DNA from: Streptomyces sp. MMG1121
Lineage (GTDB): Bacteria > Actinomycetota > Actinomycetes > Streptomycetales > Streptomycetaceae
Assembly: GCF_001280015.1 (NCBI RefSeq)
Contig: NZ_LGDV01000226.1
Location: 1-64,000 of the forward strand
Direction: 5' to 3'
DNA: 64,000 nucleotides
A model generated the notes under the pieces. It had not been told where the DNA came from. It searched no databases and saw nothing but the letters and a program-made list of their open reading frames with translations. The stretch's first letter is position 1. Each line of letters begins with the position of its first letter. Positions 7,599 to 51,981 of the stretch are shown piece by piece. The position numbers and the translations under genes were made by a program.

Positions 7599-9275
7599 CT
7601 ACCGCAGCACGCTCGACAGCAGCTTCGCCGCCTTACGGACCTTGGGCCGCGCCACCTTCTTGATGACCGGACGGATCACCTTGGCCGTCACTCCCACCGG
7701 GCGCCAGCGGATCTGCAGACGGCCGGGGTTGCGGCCCTCCGGCTCCAGCGTGACCTCGTGCGGGGTCGCGCCGGAGCGGTAGTCGACGCGGGCCGTGACC
7801 GCCGTGAAGTCCAGCGGGGCCAGCAGGACGCCCGAGTGGGCCAGGCCCTGCTGCTGGAGGCGGACCTGGGGGTGCCGGATGCCCTCGAAGCCCTGGAAGG
7901 GGAGGGGCGCGGCCGACAGGTCCAGGTGGACCGTGCCCTCGAAGAAGCCCGGGCTGACGGGGTCGAGACGGAACGGGACCGTCATCCGGCGGTTGCCGGG
8001 CGACAGCAGCAGGCTCGCGCGCTGCGGGCCGACCGGCAGGCGCAGGCCCGGGTCGTAGGTGCGGATCGAGAGCGTCAGCGTGGCACCCCGGCCGCGCGTC
8101 AGTTCTGTGATCTCGTGGCGGAACTGCGCGCTCGGGAACGGGCGCGTGTCCAACTCGAGGTCGGAGAGGTCCAGTTCGCGGCGGGCGCGGTCCGACGCGG
8201 GAACCGTGTCGCCCCAGTACGGGACACCCGACGCGTCGGCCGTCACCTGGCGCGGTGCCACCCGGTCGCCGAGGCCGCGGGCCGCGAGCTGGGCGTCGGC
8301 CAGGCGGCCGTCCCGCAGCAGCTCCAGCACCACCCGCTCCGGACGCGGCAGCCGGGTGAAGGCACCGTCGGCCAGCGTGTCCAGGTACGGGTTCATGATC
8401 TCGGCGAAGGAGCGCATCCACTCCTCGTCCCGGAAGGGCAGGTCACCGGCGTACATCCGGAAGTCGTGCTTGAGGAACTTGTAGTCCTTGTCCTCGCGCA
8501 GGACCGCGTGCCCGCTCTCCACCAGGAACTCGTCGATCAGCGTCTGCACGTAGACGCGGTCGCGGACGTTGGTGACCTTGTGCCGCTGGTTGGAGATGGA
8601 CGCCGAGGCGGCCGCCGCGTACGGGTCGATGTACCAGACGTACACCGGGTCCGGGATGATCGTGAACGCCTGGGCCAGGCAGTAGGCCTGGGCCGAGAAC
8701 AGCTGGTCCTCGTAGTGGATGCCCTCGGGGAACCGCAGGTCGTGCCGGTCCAGGAAGGAGCGCGCGTACATCTTGCTGGTCGACAGGTGCTCGAACAGCA
8801 GGCGCGGGTCCTGCTCGATGCCCTCGACCGTGCGCTTCTCGGTCACCACGTGCGGCATCCACGTCGAACGCTTGCCGTTGTCCACGCGCACCCGGCGGAC
8901 CGCGCCCATGGTGAAGTCGACCTCGCGCTCGCGGTGCGCGGCGAGCAGCAACTCCACGGCGCGGGGCGGGAGTTCGTCGTCGCTGTCGAGGAACATCAGA
9001 TACGGCGCCCGGGCGATGTCGATGGCCCGGTTGCGCGGGGCGCTGCAGCCGCCGCTGTTCTCCGGCAGCCGGAGGTAGCGGACGCGCTCGTCCTGCGCCT
9101 CCAGCCGGCGCGCCACCGCGGGCGTGTCGTCGGTGGAGTGGTCGTCGCTGATGATGATCTCGATGTTCGCGTGCGTCTGCGCGCGCAGCGACTCCACGGC
9201 CCGGGGCAGGCGCTCCGCGTCGTTGAAGACGATGACCGTGACCGTGACGTCAGGGGTCGAGGTCGTGGTCGTCAT
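7599..9275 (-). CDS. GT2 family glycosyltransferase with long C-terminal region
   Basis: 558 residues. The first 240 residues are a GT-A/GT2 nucleotide-sugar transferase: VTVTVIVFNDAERL opens the Rossmann core, SDDHSTDD binds the nucleotide, and FLDSDDE is the DXD metal motif. The C-terminal half has no clear family but reads like the accessory region of TagF/GT2 proteins of this locus. ATG 9275 is chosen because homology starts directly there. It overlaps the stop of the preceding TagF-like gene (ATGA, 9272-9275), so the pair is translationally coupled. The likely job is adding a sugar to the wall polymer made by its operon partner. Confidence 0.85.
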   Translation of the reverse strand: MTTTTSTPDVTVTVIVFNDAERLPRAVESLRAQTHANIEIIISDDHSTDDTPAVARRLEAQDERVRYLRLPENSGGCSAPRNRAIDIARAPYLMFLDSDDELPPRAVELLLAAHREREVDFTMGAVRRVRVDNGKRSTWMPHVVTEKRTVEGIEQDPRLLFEHLSTSKMYARSFLDRHDLRFPEGIHYEDQLFSAQAYCLAQAFTIIPDPVYVWYIDPYAAAASASISNQRHKVTNVRDRVYVQTLIDEFLVESGHAVLREDKDYKFLKHDFRMYAGDLPFRDEEWMRSFAEIMNPYLDTLADGAFTRLPRPERVVLELLRDGRLADAQLAARGLGDRVAPRQVTADASGVPYWGDTVPASDRARRELDLSDLELDTRPFPSAQFRHEITELTRGRGATLTLSIRTYDPGLRLPVGPQRASLLLSPGNRRMTVPFRLDPVSPGFFEGTVHLDLSAAPLPFQGFEGIRHPQVRLQQQGLAHSGVLLAPLDFTAVTARVDYRSGATPHEVTLEPEGRNPGRLQIRWRPVGVTAKVIRPVIKKVARPKVRKAAKLLSSVLR

Positions 9276-46674: not shown

Positions 46675-47043
46675 GGGGATGATCGGTTTCGACAGCGGCT
46701 GTCGAAGCAGGGGAAGCGTGTCGAGGAAGCGGCAATGATCTCGTAAACCATATGTCGCAAAAAATAATCGCCAACACCAAGCGCGATTCCTTCGCCCTCG
46801 CTGCCTAAGTAGCGACTTGCGAAGTGTCAGCCCGGGGCTGTTCCCGACCCGGATCCTGGCATCAGCTAGGGAACTAAACCTTGATCCCGGTCACGGGGTG
46901 AAGAGGGAAACCAAACAGTGACTGAGCCCGTCGGCGACTTGTTCGCGTGATCGCCGGGGCTGAGAAAATCACAGCGAACTGCACACGGAGAAGCCCTGAT
47001 TCCGCACCGTTGGACGCGGGTTCGATTCCCGCCATCTCCACCA
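46675..47043 (+). ncRNA. ssrA: tmRNA (SsrA)
   Basis: 369 nt including encoded CCA. The 5' GGGGAUG pairs with 3' CAUCUCC of the tRNA-like acceptor stem, and GGTTCGATTCC is the T-loop. The tag reading frame resumes at GCC 46770 after AAUAAUC and encodes ANTKRDSFALAA before TAA at 46806-46808. Adds a degradation tag to proteins on stalled ribosomes, with SmpB from the gene upstream. A hairpin (CACCGG/CCGGTG) precedes the mature 5' end in the precursor. Confidence 0.95.
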
Positions 47044-47070
47044 GTCCCTCCGGGGGCACCCCATGTGGGC

Positions 47071-47103
47071 AAAGGCCCCGTCGCTTCGAGCGGCGGGGCC
47101 TTT
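47071..47103 (+). terminator. Terminator after ssrA
   Basis: AAAGGCCCCG-TCGC/GCGG-CGGGGCCTTT stem (14 bp with one G-U pair) and 5-nt loop, 28 bp past the tmRNA CCA, ending in TTTG. Confidence 0.8.
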
Positions 47104-47258
47104 GTCATGCCGTGGCCTCCCTGATCTCTCCCTGCCCCCTTCCTGACCTGGACGTTCATCGTTTGTTGATCGTCGCGAGTAAGTGTGGTGAAGCCATCTG
47201 CGCACGAACTTCACAAGAGGGCGTGCGTGACGTCTTCACCCTGAAAGGGGGTGCAGTG

Positions 47259-47339
47259 ATGAAGCTTCTCTTCGCCCTTCGCAACAAGGTGTCCGCTCAG
47301 AAGAGCCTGAAGGCCAGCGCCTGGTACTTCTGGTACTAG
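47259..47339 (+). CDS. Atropopeptide-type RiPP precursor, core AWYFWY
   Basis: A 26-residue peptide. Leader (1-20) is basic and amphipathic, ending QKSLKAS. The last six residues, AWYFWY (21-26), match the tryptorubin A core AWYIWY as I remember it except Phe for Ile at core position 4. Strong Shine-Dalgarno GAAAGGGGG lies 7 bases before ATG 47259; a GTG one codon earlier is possible. It is followed by a hairpin and two P450 genes, the arrangement of P450-modified cross-linked peptides. Predicted product: an aromatic side-chain cross-linked hexapeptide with a non-canonical fold. Too short for routine gene callers. Confidence 0.85.
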   Translation: MKLLFALRNKVSAQKSLKASAWYFWY

Positions 47340-47347
47340 GCCAAGAG

Positions 47348-47375
47348 GTCGTCCCCGCCGCACGGCGGGGACGAC
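47348..47375 (+). terminator. Hairpin between precursor and P450 genes
   Basis: 12-bp perfect stem GTCGTCCCCGCC/GGCGGGGACGAC with a 4-nt loop, 8 bases after the precursor stop and 45 before the P450 start. As a partial terminator or RNA-stabilising hairpin it would give more precursor than enzyme. Confidence 0.7.
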
Positions 47376-47419
47376 GCCGTCTGCCGACGTCTGCTCCCTC
47401 GGCCTTCCCGGAGACCCCC

Positions 47420-48463
47420 ATGCGCGCCACGTTGTTCCATCCACGACTCGCCGCCCTGTTCCGGGACCACCTCGGGCAGGACGTCTTCCGGCTCGAATCC
47501 GACACGGTCGGAATCGCCGGCCACGAGGTCGCCGACCGGATCCTCGCCGCCCGGCGGGCCACCGAGACCGAACGGCCCACGTTCAAGCCGCTGCACGGGC
47601 GCTCGATCTCGCGGGGCGAGGCCTCCTCGGTGATGCGGACCATCGGCGGCGACGTGCGCGAGGCGCTGAAGAAGCCCCGTCCCCGGCCCGAGGACGTCGA
47701 CCTGTCCGGGGTCTGGCCCCTCACGGGGCATCTGTTCCTGCGGGACCTGATCCTCGGCGAGGACCCCCACCGGCTGCGCATCCTGATGAGCCGCAACCTC
47801 GAACTGACCCCCAAGCTCACCTGGGCGGTGATCGCGGCAGGTGCGGCGCTGCCGGGGCGGGTCGGGCGGCGCGGTGCCCCGCTGACCGCCATCGCCGGTC
47901 TGACGGCCGACGCCACCGGCTACCACGAGCGCCGCTACGCCATGGGCATGTACCGGCGCGCGGCGGCCCCCGTGTGCTTCACGGTCTCCACCCTGGTCGC
48001 GAACGCACTGTGGCTCGGCTCGCCGTTCGACCCCGGCACGCCGAACCGGCACATCCTGCACGAGGCCATGCGCCTGCTGCCGCCGTCCTGGAACATCCTG
48101 CGCAACGCCTCCCCCGAGTACGGCGCCATCGACCGGCGCATCGGCGCGGGCGACGACGTCCTCCTGCTGCCCCTGCTCTCCCACCGGGATCCGAAGCTGT
48201 GGGAGGACCCGCACGAGTTCCGCCCGGAGCGCTGGGACACCCTCGACCCCGACACCGCCCCCGGCTACCTCCCCTTCGGCCACTCCTCCGAGCGTTGCTG
48301 GGGCCGGCACATGGTGATGCCGCTGGCCGAGCTGCTCCTGGACCTGATACGTGACACGGGCCTGGCGGTGAGCCCCGACCAGACCTCCGCCAAGGTCCCC
48401 CTCGTCGGTCTGCTCGGCGTCGAGGACGTCCGGGTGACGAGGGTGCGCCGTGCCGCTGCCTGA
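47420..48463 (+). CDS. Short cytochrome P450, probable cross-linking enzyme of the RiPP cluster
   Basis: 347 residues, about 50 shorter than a normal bacterial P450. The haem-ligand loop FGHSSERCWG (Cys in FxxGxxxCxG) and the ExxR motif EAMR are present. The I-helix region reads RAAAPVCFTVSTLVANALW and lacks the usual acid before Thr. The N-terminus is short and lacks some substrate-recognition elements of CYP107/105 enzymes. This fits the atypical P450s of tryptorubin-like clusters that form carbon-carbon and carbon-nitrogen bonds between aromatic residues. ATG 47420 with GGAG 6 bp upstream. It overlaps the second P450 gene by 14 bp, so they are co-translated. Confidence 0.85.
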   Translation: MRATLFHPRLAALFRDHLGQDVFRLESDTVGIAGHEVADRILAARRATETERPTFKPLHGRSISRGEASSVMRTIGGDVREALKKPRPRPEDVDLSGVWPLTGHLFLRDLILGEDPHRLRILMSRNLELTPKLTWAVIAAGAALPGRVGRRGAPLTAIAGLTADATGYHERRYAMGMYRRAAAPVCFTVSTLVANALWLGSPFDPGTPNRHILHEAMRLLPPSWNILRNASPEYGAIDRRIGAGDDVLLLPLLSHRDPKLWEDPHEFRPERWDTLDPDTAPGYLPFGHSSERCWGRHMVMPLAELLLDLIRDTGLAVSPDQTSAKVPLVGLLGVEDVRVTRVRRAAA

Positions 48464-49667
48464 GCCTTCGGACGGCGCCGAGACGGTCGACGGGTCCTTC
48501 GCCCGCGACCCGCACGAGGTCTACCGGCGCTGGCGCGAGGAGGGCGGGGTCCGCAAGGTCCGTTTCTCCGGTGCCGCCCCCTTGGCCGGCTGGGTCGTCA
48601 CCGGGCACGCGGCCTGCCGGGCGGCCCTCGCCGACCCCCGGCTGAGCAAGGACGGCGCGACCGAGGCGTACGCCCGCCACGAGGGGCTTCCCACCGGCGG
48701 CCCGGGCGGCGCGCTCACCAGCCACATGCTCAACTCCGACCCGCCACGCCACACCCGCCTGCGCCGGCTGGTGCAACAGGCGTTCACCCAGCGGCGGGTG
48801 GCGGAGCTGCGCCCGAGGATCGAGGCGCGCGTCACCGCACTCCTCGACGCCCTGGACGGGACGGACGAGGTGGACCTGATCGCCCGGTTCGCGCTCCCGC
48901 TGCCGCTCGCGGTGATCTTCGACCTGCTCGGCGCGGACCCCGGCGGGCAGGGGATCCTCCGGGTCCGGGGCCACACGGTGCACGGGGACGGGGGCGACGG
49001 GGAGGTGTCCGTCCCGACGGCCGAGGCGATGCTGGACCGCCTGCGCGCCCTGATCGACGCCAAGCGCGCCCACCCCGGCGACGACCTGCTCTCCGCTCTG
49101 ATCGCCGCCCGCGACCACGGCGACCGCCTCACCGAGCAGGAGGTCACCTCCATGGCCTTCCTGCTGGTGATCGCGGGCCACCAGACCACCGCCAACCTCC
49201 TCGCCAACGGCCTGCACGCCCTGCTCGCCCACCCCGGCCGGCTCGCCGCCGTGCGCGCCGACGCCGCGCTGATCCCCGGCCTGACCGAGGAAGTCCTGCG
49301 CCACGACAGCCCGTTCGCCCTGGCGAGCCTGCGCTACACCACCGAGCCGGTGACGATCGCCGGTACGGCCATCCCGGCCGGGGAGTTCGTACAGATCGCG
49401 CTGCTGGCCGCGAACCGTGATCCGGACGTCTTCGAGGACCCCGACCGCTTCGACCCCGGCCGCGACGCCTCCCGGCATCTGGCGTTCGGCCACGGCGTTC
49501 ACCGCTGTCTGGGCGCACCGCTGGCCCGTCTGCAGGCGGAGATCGCCTTCGGGCACGTACTCCGGCGCTTCCCCGGCCTGCGTCTGGCCGATCCGCAGCG
49601 CGCCCCCCAGTGGCAGGACAACCCCCGCCACCGCGGACTGCTCACCCTCCCGGTCCGCCTCCGCTGA
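48450..49667 (+). CDS. Cytochrome P450 (CYP107/105-like)
   Basis: 405 residues with all canonical motifs: I-helix AGHQTT, ExxR EEVLR, haem loop FGHGVHRCLG. A conventional class I bacterial P450 that would need a ferredoxin partner encoded elsewhere. GTG 48450 lies inside the end of the preceding P450 gene (14-bp overlap) with GAGGG upstream, so it belongs to the peptide cluster. It may add a further oxidation (hydroxylation or an extra bond) to the cross-linked peptide, or act on another substrate. No cognate ferredoxin gene is in the window. Confidence 0.92.
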   Translation: MPLPEPSDGAETVDGSFARDPHEVYRRWREEGGVRKVRFSGAAPLAGWVVTGHAACRAALADPRLSKDGATEAYARHEGLPTGGPGGALTSHMLNSDPPRHTRLRRLVQQAFTQRRVAELRPRIEARVTALLDALDGTDEVDLIARFALPLPLAVIFDLLGADPGGQGILRVRGHTVHGDGGDGEVSVPTAEAMLDRLRALIDAKRAHPGDDLLSALIAARDHGDRLTEQEVTSMAFLLVIAGHQTTANLLANGLHALLAHPGRLAAVRADAALIPGLTEEVLRHDSPFALASLRYTTEPVTIAGTAIPAGEFVQIALLAANRDPDVFEDPDRFDPGRDASRHLAFGHGVHRCLGAPLARLQAEIAFGHVLRRFPGLRLADPQRAPQWQDNPRHRGLLTLPVRLR

Positions 49668-49743
49668 CGGCCGGCGCCACTTGACGGCTCGCGGCGCGAT
49701 GCCCCGGGTGACGCCTTCGTGCCCTCGACAGGTCTGACGGGAA

Positions 49744-50931
49744 TCAGCGCGGGCGGGCCGCCTGGGACGCCGTGTGGACGAGCAGCGCCAGGGCGGCCGC
49801 GCCGGCCGGGACCAGGAAGGCGGTGCCGGGGGAGAGGTGTTCGGCCGCCCAGCCGCCCGCCGCCGAGCCGCAGGCGATGCCGGTGAGCAGCCCGGTCACC
49901 ACCAGGCTCATGCCCTCGTTGAGCCGGTCGGCCGGGGTGCGCTTCTGCACCTGGGTCATCGCCGTCACCATCGTCGGCGCGGTCGCCATGCCCGCCACCA
50001 GCAGCGCGCCCGCGAGCACCGGCAGCGAACCGGCGACACCGGCGGCCACCCAGGGCAGCGTCATCAGGACGGCCATCGCCGCCAGGCAGTGGCCCAGCCG
50101 CGACCCGGCCGGTCGCCGGGCGCCGAACACCAGGCCCGCCGCGCCCGAGCCCGCCGCCTGGAGCGCGAGTACGGCCCCGGCGACCGTGCGATGTCCGTGC
50201 GCGCCGGCGAAGGCGATCGTGGCGACCTCCATCGAGCCGAACACCGCGCCGGTCGCCGTGAAGCAGGCCAGCAGTGGCGGGATGCCCGGGATGCGCCACG
50301 GTGTCCGCGCGGAGCGGGCGGTGCGCACCGGCGGTTCGGTGGCCCGCTGCGCGGTGAACACCAGCATGCCGGACAGCAGCAGCACCGCCCCGGCGAGAGT
50401 GCCCGCCTCCGGGAAGAAGGTGCCGCTCAGGAAGGACGCGAGCACCGGGCCGAGCATGAAGCACAGCTCGTCGGCGGCCTGTTCGAAGGAGTTCGCGGTG
50501 TGCAGCGCACCGGGTTCGTCGCGCAGCAGATGGGCCCAGCGGGCGCGGGAGAGACCGCCGATGTTTGGAGTGGCCGCGGTCGCGGCGTAGGCGGCGAACA
50601 GGGTCCAGTGGGGGGCGTCGTAGCGGACGCACAGCAGCAGCGCGAGGCTGCCGAGCACGGCGGTGAGCGTGGCCGGTACGGCGATCCGGGCCTGTCCGTG
50701 CCGGTCGACCAGCCGGGCGATCCAGGGCCCGGCCAGCGCGGTCGCCGCCAGCCCGGTCGCGGTGACGGCACCGGCGAGGGCGTACGAGCCCCGGGGACCG
50801 GCGATCATCACGACGGCGCTCACGCTGAACATGCCCATGGGCAGCCGGGCGAGCAGGTTGCCGGTGGTGAAGGCACGGGTGCCGGGGAGGGCGAAGAGCC
50901 GGCGGTAGGCTGCGGTGGCTGATATGGGCAT
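49744..50931 (-). CDS. MFS transporter
   Basis: 395 residues with twelve hydrophobic helices. An MFS drug/export-type permease (DRHGQARIAVPATLTAVLGS in the loop after helix 2 resembles motif A; SFEQAADELCFMLGPVLAS is typical of the DHA-type exporters). It converges on the P450 genes, with a 76-bp gap, and is divergent from the LysR gene. It may export the cluster product or provide self-protection. ATG 50931. Confidence 0.85.
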   Translation of the reverse strand: MPISATAAYRRLFALPGTRAFTTGNLLARLPMGMFSVSAVVMIAGPRGSYALAGAVTATGLAATALAGPWIARLVDRHGQARIAVPATLTAVLGSLALLLCVRYDAPHWTLFAAYAATAATPNIGGLSRARWAHLLRDEPGALHTANSFEQAADELCFMLGPVLASFLSGTFFPEAGTLAGAVLLLSGMLVFTAQRATEPPVRTARSARTPWRIPGIPPLLACFTATGAVFGSMEVATIAFAGAHGHRTVAGAVLALQAAGSGAAGLVFGARRPAGSRLGHCLAAMAVLMTLPWVAAGVAGSLPVLAGALLVAGMATAPTMVTAMTQVQKRTPADRLNEGMSLVVTGLLTGIACGSAAGGWAAEHLSPGTAFLVPAGAAALALLVHTASQAARPR

Positions 50932-51015: not shown

Positions 51016-51981
51016 ATGGCCGCCGACCTGGACCCCCGTCTGCTGCGTGCCTTCGTCGCCGTCGCCGAGGAACTGCACTTCACCCGGGCGGCCGCCTGCC
51101 TCTACGTCGCCCAGCAGGCGCTCAGCCGGGATGTACGGCGCCTGGAGCGGGAGTTGGGTGCCGAGCTGTTCGTGCGGACCACCCGGCAGGTGACGCCGAC
51201 CGCCGACGGTGAACGCCTGCTGCCGTACGCGCGCCGGGTCCTGGCGGCACAGGACGACCTGCTGGCGGCCTTCGCCTCCGGCCCCGCCCGCCCGCTGCTG
51301 GTGGACCTCAACTCGCCGGGCCTCGCCACCGGCCGCCGGGTGCTGCACCGGGCCCGTGAACTCGCCCCCGACTGCGAGCTGATGGCCCGCTACGAGAGCG
51401 GTCTGACCGGAGCCGCGTCCGAGGTGCTGGCCGGCCGGCTGGACGCCTCCTTCGGCCGCTTCGCCGGTCTGGACCCGGCGCTGCGGTCCGGGCTGGAGCG
51501 GCAGCCGGTGCGCTACGAGCCGATGGCCGTCGTCCTGCCCGAGGCCCACCCCTTGGCCGGGCTGTCCGAGGTGCCCGTCGCCGCGCTGGCCGGCGAGACG
51601 GTGTACGCCGGTGCCGGCGACCCGCGCACCCCGGAGTGGACCGACCTGGCGTCCCGCCTCTTCGCGGAGCACGGCATCCGGCTCGCCCCGCCGTTGCCGC
51701 CGGCCGTCGGGGACGAGGAGTTCGAGCGGATCATGGCCAAGACCCGTCACCCGGTGCTGGCTGTCGTGGACTTCCCGGACCTGCCCCGCACGGTCCGTCG
51801 CCCTCTGGTCGACCCGGTCCCGCTGTCGCCGGTGTCGCTGGTGTGGCGCAGGGGCCTGGTCCATCCGGGGCTTGACGCGCTGCGCAGGGCGGCGGCGGAG
51901 ATCGCGGCGGCGCGGGGGTGGCTGCGGCGGCCGGGCGGGAGCTGGCTGCCGGCGGTGGACGAGATGACGAGGACGGCCTGA
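51016..51981 (+). CDS. LysR family transcriptional regulator
   Basis: 321 residues. N-terminal winged helix (LLRAFVAVAEELHFTRAA, residues 9-26, and ALSRDVRRLERELG) and a type-2 periplasmic-like effector domain. Divergent from the MFS gene with an 84-bp shared promoter, the standard LysR layout, so it probably controls the exporter; control of the P450 genes is possible but unproved. Ligand unknown. Confidence 0.9.
   Translation: MAADLDPRLLRAFVAVAEELHFTRAAACLYVAQQALSRDVRRLERELGAELFVRTTRQVTPTADGERLLPYARRVLAAQDDLLAAFASGPARPLLVDLNSPGLATGRRVLHRARELAPDCELMARYESGLTGAASEVLAGRLDASFGRFAGLDPALRSGLERQPVRYEPMAVVLPEAHPLAGLSEVPVAALAGETVYAGAGDPRTPEWTDLASRLFAEHGIRLAPPLPPAVGDEEFERIMAKTRHPVLAVVDFPDLPRTVRRPLVDPVPLSPVSLVWRRGLVHPGLDALRRAAAEIAAARGWLRRPGGSWLPAVDEMTRTA

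Follow-up and report, generated by a model that had tools for sequence, protein, structure and literature searches.

A Phe4 relative of the laurentirubin cluster, with a LauB2-type second P450, in Streptomyces sp. MMG1121

The core peptide of tryptorubin A is AWYIWY. In a 64,000-nucleotide stretch of DNA from Streptomyces sp. MMG1121 (contig NZ_LGDV01000226.1, positions 1 to 64,000; hereafter the window), a very short open reading frame ends instead in AWYFWY, and it is followed by two cytochrome P450 genes, here called B1 and B2. The question raised by this locus is what such a cluster would make, and in particular what the second P450 would contribute to the product.

The open reading frame, at 47259–47339 on the + strand, translates as MKLLFALRNKVSAQKSLKASAWYFWY, 26 residues in which the motif KSLK occupies positions 15–18 and the core AWYFWY positions 21–26. 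It matched the NCBIfam model NF038372 ("tryptorubin family RiPP precursor") over its whole length (residues 1–26 of 26) with 59.7 bits, the curated cut-off being 33 bits. A putative ribosome-binding site, GAAAGGGGG, lies upstream at 47243–47251 (+) and was unchanged or slightly altered across eight aligned loci. The family match and the retained ribosome-binding site argue that the frame is a genuine tryptorubin-family gene and not a chance ORF. By the definitions given in the sections of PMC11450843 used here, the peptide is an atropopeptide precursor, with KSLK in the leader, where KSLK or a close motif is expected, and Trp at core position 2; its xWxxWx core together with KSLK places it in the bitryptide subfamily. 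The translation, the NF038372 match and the B1 and B2 matches described below agree with the earlier note on this DNA, which had proposed a 26-residue precursor ending in AWYFWY, with Phe at core position 4, in a cluster of the tryptorubin (atropopeptide) type that holds two P450s. A biarylitide was ruled out, since such systems require a five-residue precursor according to the part of PMC13417212 used here, compared with 26 residues in this case. The string AWYFWY was absent from the literature searched; supplements, Liu 2024 and the 2022 atropopeptide paper lay outside that search and may already list it. One other precursor (L198, genome G358; MKLIHSLKNKIRPEKNLKSYAWYIWY) was seen to have KNLK in place of KSLK, which falls outside the leader-motif list in the sections of PMC11450843 used here.

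A hairpin with a 12-bp stem lies 3' of the precursor stop codon, at 47348–47375 (+). Across seven close loci, 97.6% of cells were paired, a value reached in 2 of 500 shuffles, and the covariation score was reached by one shuffle in 500. Two pairs had changed on both sides (60/500 shuffles as high), and the number of further pair types was reached by 491/500. These mixed results give moderate support for a selected structure, which may act as an attenuator that raises the precursor over enzyme levels, or as a stabilizer of a short mRNA. A long stem was also present at the equivalent place in many of the other atropopeptide loci that were folded, without shuffle comparison.

The two P450 genes follow the precursor on the + strand in the order B1, B2. 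B1 (47420–48463, +) encodes 347 residues, and B2 (48450–49667, +), with a GTG start at 48450 and a stop at 49667, encodes 405 residues and overlaps B1 by 14 bp, in agreement with the earlier description of a second, conventional P450 overlapping the first by that length. Both proteins matched Pfam p450. B1 contains the ExxR motif and the haem-cysteine loop FGHSSERCWG, and the I-helix pattern [AG]Gx[DEHQ][TS] is not matched anywhere in its sequence; in B2, ExxR, the I-helix pattern and the haem-cysteine loop FGHGVHRCLG are all present. A homologue search listed 120 hits for each protein; that with B2 covered approximately 5.8 billion proteins. The 120 B1 homologues listed were 72–94% identical to B1 and 336 to 390 residues long, a range of which 347 residues is typical, and included S. 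laurentii P0137 (82%) and the P450s named for S. jumonjinensis and S. clavuligerus (72 and 73%). Judged on this identity to the homologues listed, B1 is the class-defining P450 of atropopeptides. Other B1 matches in the same 9.45 Mb genome reached 29–33% identity, and B1 lay downstream of the precursor in the window, as it did in each of the 34 loci, found with the KSLK-like pattern, that were fetched from other genomes.

Several known systems share this part of the cluster. The tryptorubin A and B cluster has the NF038372 precursor family, the KSLK leader and a B1-type P450 in common with the window, but is described, as far as the sources used here go, as a precursor with one P450, whereas the window has two. 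The clusters for amyxirubin (jum, S. jumonjinensis) and clavorubin (S. clavuligerus) likewise have a B1-type P450, but are introduced in those sources as two-gene clusters, compared with three genes here. ScaB, from the scabrirubin system, is also an atropopeptide P450 (PMC12352619 and PMC11450843, sections used here), but forms one bond only, on the core TWFIWYS (PMC11450843), which differs from AWYFWY. At the equivalent of position 4, ScaB accepts nine of ten replacements and refuses Arg; Phe is not among the ten in the part of PMC12352619 used here.

The lau cluster of S. laurentii, which consists of LauA, LauB1 and LauB2 (PMC11450843), has the same order as the window cluster: precursor, class-defining P450, second P450. 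According to the sections of that paper used here, LauA and LauB1 yield tryptorubin B, LauB1 forming three bonds, while the complete cluster yields laurentirubin B, in which an aryl ether joins the second Trp and the second Tyr; co-expression demonstrated that LauB2 is required for this fourth bond, after LauB1. The same sections count more than 650 atropopeptide clusters, with additional P450s frequent among the tailoring genes, and present lau as the sole characterized extra-P450 cluster of such kind, bar two exceptions from Liu 2024. Since lau carries both LauB1 and LauB2, the premise of the earlier note that known clusters hold a single P450 fails, and the two exceptions cited there also speak against it.

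Is B2, then, a LauB2? The deposited LauB2 of strain ATCC 31255 is fragmented through sequencing error (PMC11450843, sections used here), and our comparison used other S. laurentii records in its place. Among the 120 matches listed, B2 was 79–80% identical to S. laurentii P0015, P0016, P0017 and P0018. The contigs of P0015 (B2-like) and P0137 (B1-like) are both 23510 long, so both proteins very probably come from a single contig. A B2 tree with 21 rows placed the window B2, the B2 proteins of four other Phe4 loci, P0015 and P0018 in a seven-row clade (99/99). Within this clade, the S. laurentii proteins grouped with L188 and L034 (90/88), whereas P0137 fell outside L188 and L034 in the B1 tree; the main groups of the two trees agree. 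A LauB2-related second P450 downstream of B1 characterizes a laurentirubin-type cluster, and B2 is such a P450 by its identity and clade, as measured against the other S. laurentii records. Comparison with known atropopeptide clusters, which had been proposed as a check, thus found S. laurentii relatives for both P450s, and the window cluster is a new Phe4 relative of laurentirubin, not a new kind of system.

The reported masses of related products indicate what B1 and B2 would do. For varsorubin B1, three bonds correspond to a loss of four protons, and the lau products were observed at 895.3760 and 824.3401 (PMC11450843, sections used here). The [M+H]+ values that we computed for AWYIWY and WYIWY, each minus 6 H, are 895.3774 and 824.3402. 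Three bonds therefore entail a loss of 4 H and four a loss of 6 H, and position 4, Ile/Leu in lau by its masses and Phe in the window, would be the sole difference between the two cores. The earlier expectation of −6 Da for three bonds has to be corrected. The extra oxidation that it assigned to the second P450 is still predicted, but in another form: B2 is expected to remove a further 2 H rather than to add 16. For AWYFWY, the computed [M+H]+ is 931.3774 with three bonds (minus 4 H) and 929.3617 with four (minus 6 H); for WYFWY, lacking Ala1, the corresponding values are 860.3402 and 858.3246.

The sequence data show the three genes and the families to which they belong, the close similarity of B2 to P450s of S. 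laurentii, and a three-gene order that recurs; which bonds form, in what sequence, and how proteases act are deduced from the published lau work. In this scheme, the precursor would be translated and its leader, anchored by KSLK, bound by B1, which is predicted to form the three tryptorubin-type bonds on AWYFWY: a Trp–Trp C–C bond, a Trp–Tyr C–N bond and a Trp–backbone C–N bond. B2 is predicted to close next the aryl ether from Trp5 to Tyr6. Host peptidases would cut off the leader, and often Ala1 as well, leaving AWYFWY minus 6 H and WYFWY minus 6 H as the expected products. The product should be a rigid hexapeptide with four cross-links, and we consider it quite probable that the cluster is of the laurentirubin type and makes the Phe4 analogue of laurentirubin. 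As B2 is approximately 20% divergent and the lau core has Ile/Leu at position 4, the regiochemistry of B2 on the Phe4 scaffold could differ from that in lau. B2 might also perform an ordinary hydroxylation (+16, which the earlier note thought possible) on the B1 product and close no ring, as would fit its usual I-helix, ExxR and haem-loop motifs and its nearest solved relatives by sequence, which include TamI, an enzyme that oxygenates its substrate, and the hydroxylase PikC. However, its closest function-tested relatives come from S. laurentii, in which the second P450 makes the ether with a loss of 2 H, and we regard hydroxylation as improbable.

We then considered how the two-P450 arrangement is distributed. 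The pattern LKxxxWYxWY-stop was run on 392 sampled genomes of the genus, including that of the window, and matched 40 of them, while the reversed pattern matched none of the 392; a stricter KSLK-like pattern, run earlier, had found 35 genomes. Position 4 was Phe in eight of the 40 precursors (G000, G255, G388, G362, G390, G302, G276 and G304). The presence of B2 was scored by tblastn on the fetched neighborhoods, and a B2 was called whole when one aligned stretch ran from residue 20 or earlier to residue 385 or later. By this measure, B2 adjoined seven of the eight Phe4 precursors, whole in five and in pieces in two (G390 and G302), and was absent in G276. It stood beside one (G374, whole) of the 32 precursors with Ile, Leu or His at position 4, and was not found by tblastn in the fetched neighborhoods of the other 31, among which its absence is less certain in G183, where the contig extends only about 440 bases beyond B1. 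Ignoring kinship, Fisher's test of Phe4 against B2 gave p = 3e-6 counting pieces and 5e-4 for whole genes only. The supported branches held only three independent pairs, with B2 going with Phe4 in 1.7 on average and against it in 0.4, and so few pairs confer no significance on the link. The association was consequently rejected as independent evidence of coupling.

A second draw, at the family level and with the Phe4 pattern only, found a Phe4 core in 10 of 394 genomes, four of them already counted; five of the six new genomes had a whole B2 and one, G445, had none. An AWYFWY precursor and B1 without B2 were thus seen at two loci, L195 (G276) and L191 (G445). The ORF after B1 in L191 (8522–10045) resembles by eye an FAD/NAD-linked oxidoreductase. 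In L189 (G565), the B2 frame stays open beyond its normal end, giving 812 residues, which points to an assembly error or to a frameshift close to the C-terminus. Starting from the B2 side, 80 named loci were kept of 320 relatives. In the eight with 63–85% identity to B2, an atropopeptide precursor was present every time (five Phe4, three Ile4); one of these, L039, has a precursor and contig extent equal to those of G374. For the 72 loci at 59% identity or less, the flanks that were fetched, some of them short, showed no precursor motif. Among the 392 genomes, seven had a B2 match at E ≤ 1e-110, which in six lay beside an AWYxWY precursor. The seventh, G121 (S. specialis, judging by contig coordinates), had no B1 match above 34%. 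Its B2-like P450 (L055, 6001–7185; 59% identity) was rejected as a further cluster on that best B1 match of 34% and on the lack of a precursor motif in the fetched 13 kb; it is possibly an outgroup of the B2 family.

The co-occurrence of Phe4 and B2 would be accounted for if B2 acted on Phe4 itself, or built a different ring owing to the Phe4 core. The counts of seven of eight against one of 32 fit such an activity, but the related clusters are not independent, and B2 also accompanies AWYIWY cores (three of the eight named loci) and the lau core, where the second P450 bonds Trp5 to Tyr6. As there are also the two Phe4 clusters without B2, we give this idea hardly any credence. That Phe4 and B2 are functionally coupled, with B2 preferring the Phe4 scaffold or the ether mattering only on Phe4 peptides, we consider doubtful.

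The dN/dS ratio was 0.15–0.33 for B1 (against nine loci) and 0.23–0.48 for B2 (against the eight loci having B2, two of them fragments), values that indicate purifying selection on both genes. In all eight comparisons that measured both, the rate of B2 was somewhat higher than that of B1. B2 is not always kept, since two strains sharing the Phe4 core hold fragments only: residues 14–149 in L158 (G390; 8618–9052) and residues 300–405 in L160 (G302; 6087–5770, minus strand), each beside an open precursor and B1. Both strains are probably without a working second P450. The fragmentary B2 in two of the eight Phe4 loci, and its absence from one, might indicate that B2 stands outside the pathway, or the cluster might be silent, with a tryptorubin analogue that has just three bonds (−4 H) as the product. 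The overlap of the genes, the selection on B2, the agreement of the B1 and B2 trees in their main groups and the co-occurrence of B2 with B1 and the precursor at different sites in the chromosome all argue against this explanation, which we find very unlikely.

When the window was compared by blastn with L152, L034 and L188, homology stopped at both ends, which defines a three-gene unit at 47141–49670 (+); according to the locus compared, its left end lies at 47141 to 47201 and its right end at 49669 to 49672. L158, with its broken B2, aligns with the window over 47192–48867 only. The alignments thus describe the cluster as a 2.5-kb block present at different chromosomal sites. In the window, it is flanked by ssrA, the tmRNA gene, on one side and by an MFS transporter gene (49744–50931) on the other, an arrangement spanning 46675–50931, with a LysR gene beyond (51016–51981), and it occupies the same site in G255 and G302. 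The MFS and LysR genes were excluded as cluster members because neither was found in the 13–15 kb fetched around L152, L158, L188, L034 and L151, five related clusters located elsewhere, and because an MFS homologue follows ssrA in some relatives without the cluster. Among 12 same-genus relatives lacking the cluster there, an MFS homologue (60–67%) lay within 1.5 kb after ssrA in four (G002, G004, G006 and G012), and a LysR homologue followed ssrA in one further relative, G005. In the eight remaining relatives, the 1.5 kb fetched after ssrA held no MFS homologue, and apart from G005 no LysR homologue was seen there either; these eight include G007, G003 and G001, whose ssrA is the most similar of the 12. 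We think it most likely that, in the lineage of the window, an MFS gene was already resident after ssrA and the unit entered between the two, although the empty site was not seen in the nearest kin. Insertion into ssrA as an attachment site was rejected: within the window, the 3' end of that gene (26 bases, up to three mismatches) does not occur a second time, which offers no support for an integrase-type island.

Our preferred reading remains that of a laurentirubin-type cluster in which B2 would close the fourth bond. If Phe4 and B2 were coupled after all, clusters combining AWYFWY with B2 would make up a separate branch directed at a target of its own, and Phe4 strains with a broken B2 would yield a related, less rigid compound and serve as natural comparisons. 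The two-P450 laurentirubin arrangement, of which few cases are characterized, turns up repeatedly among the genomes sampled from Streptomyces and its relatives, frequently with Phe4, and exact masses are now given for detection of its product. Strains with the same core and a whole, broken or absent B2 allow the role of the fourth bond to be asked. Most useful in this analysis are the repeated pairing of Phe4 with B2, the natural strains whose B2 is broken, and the corrected masses.
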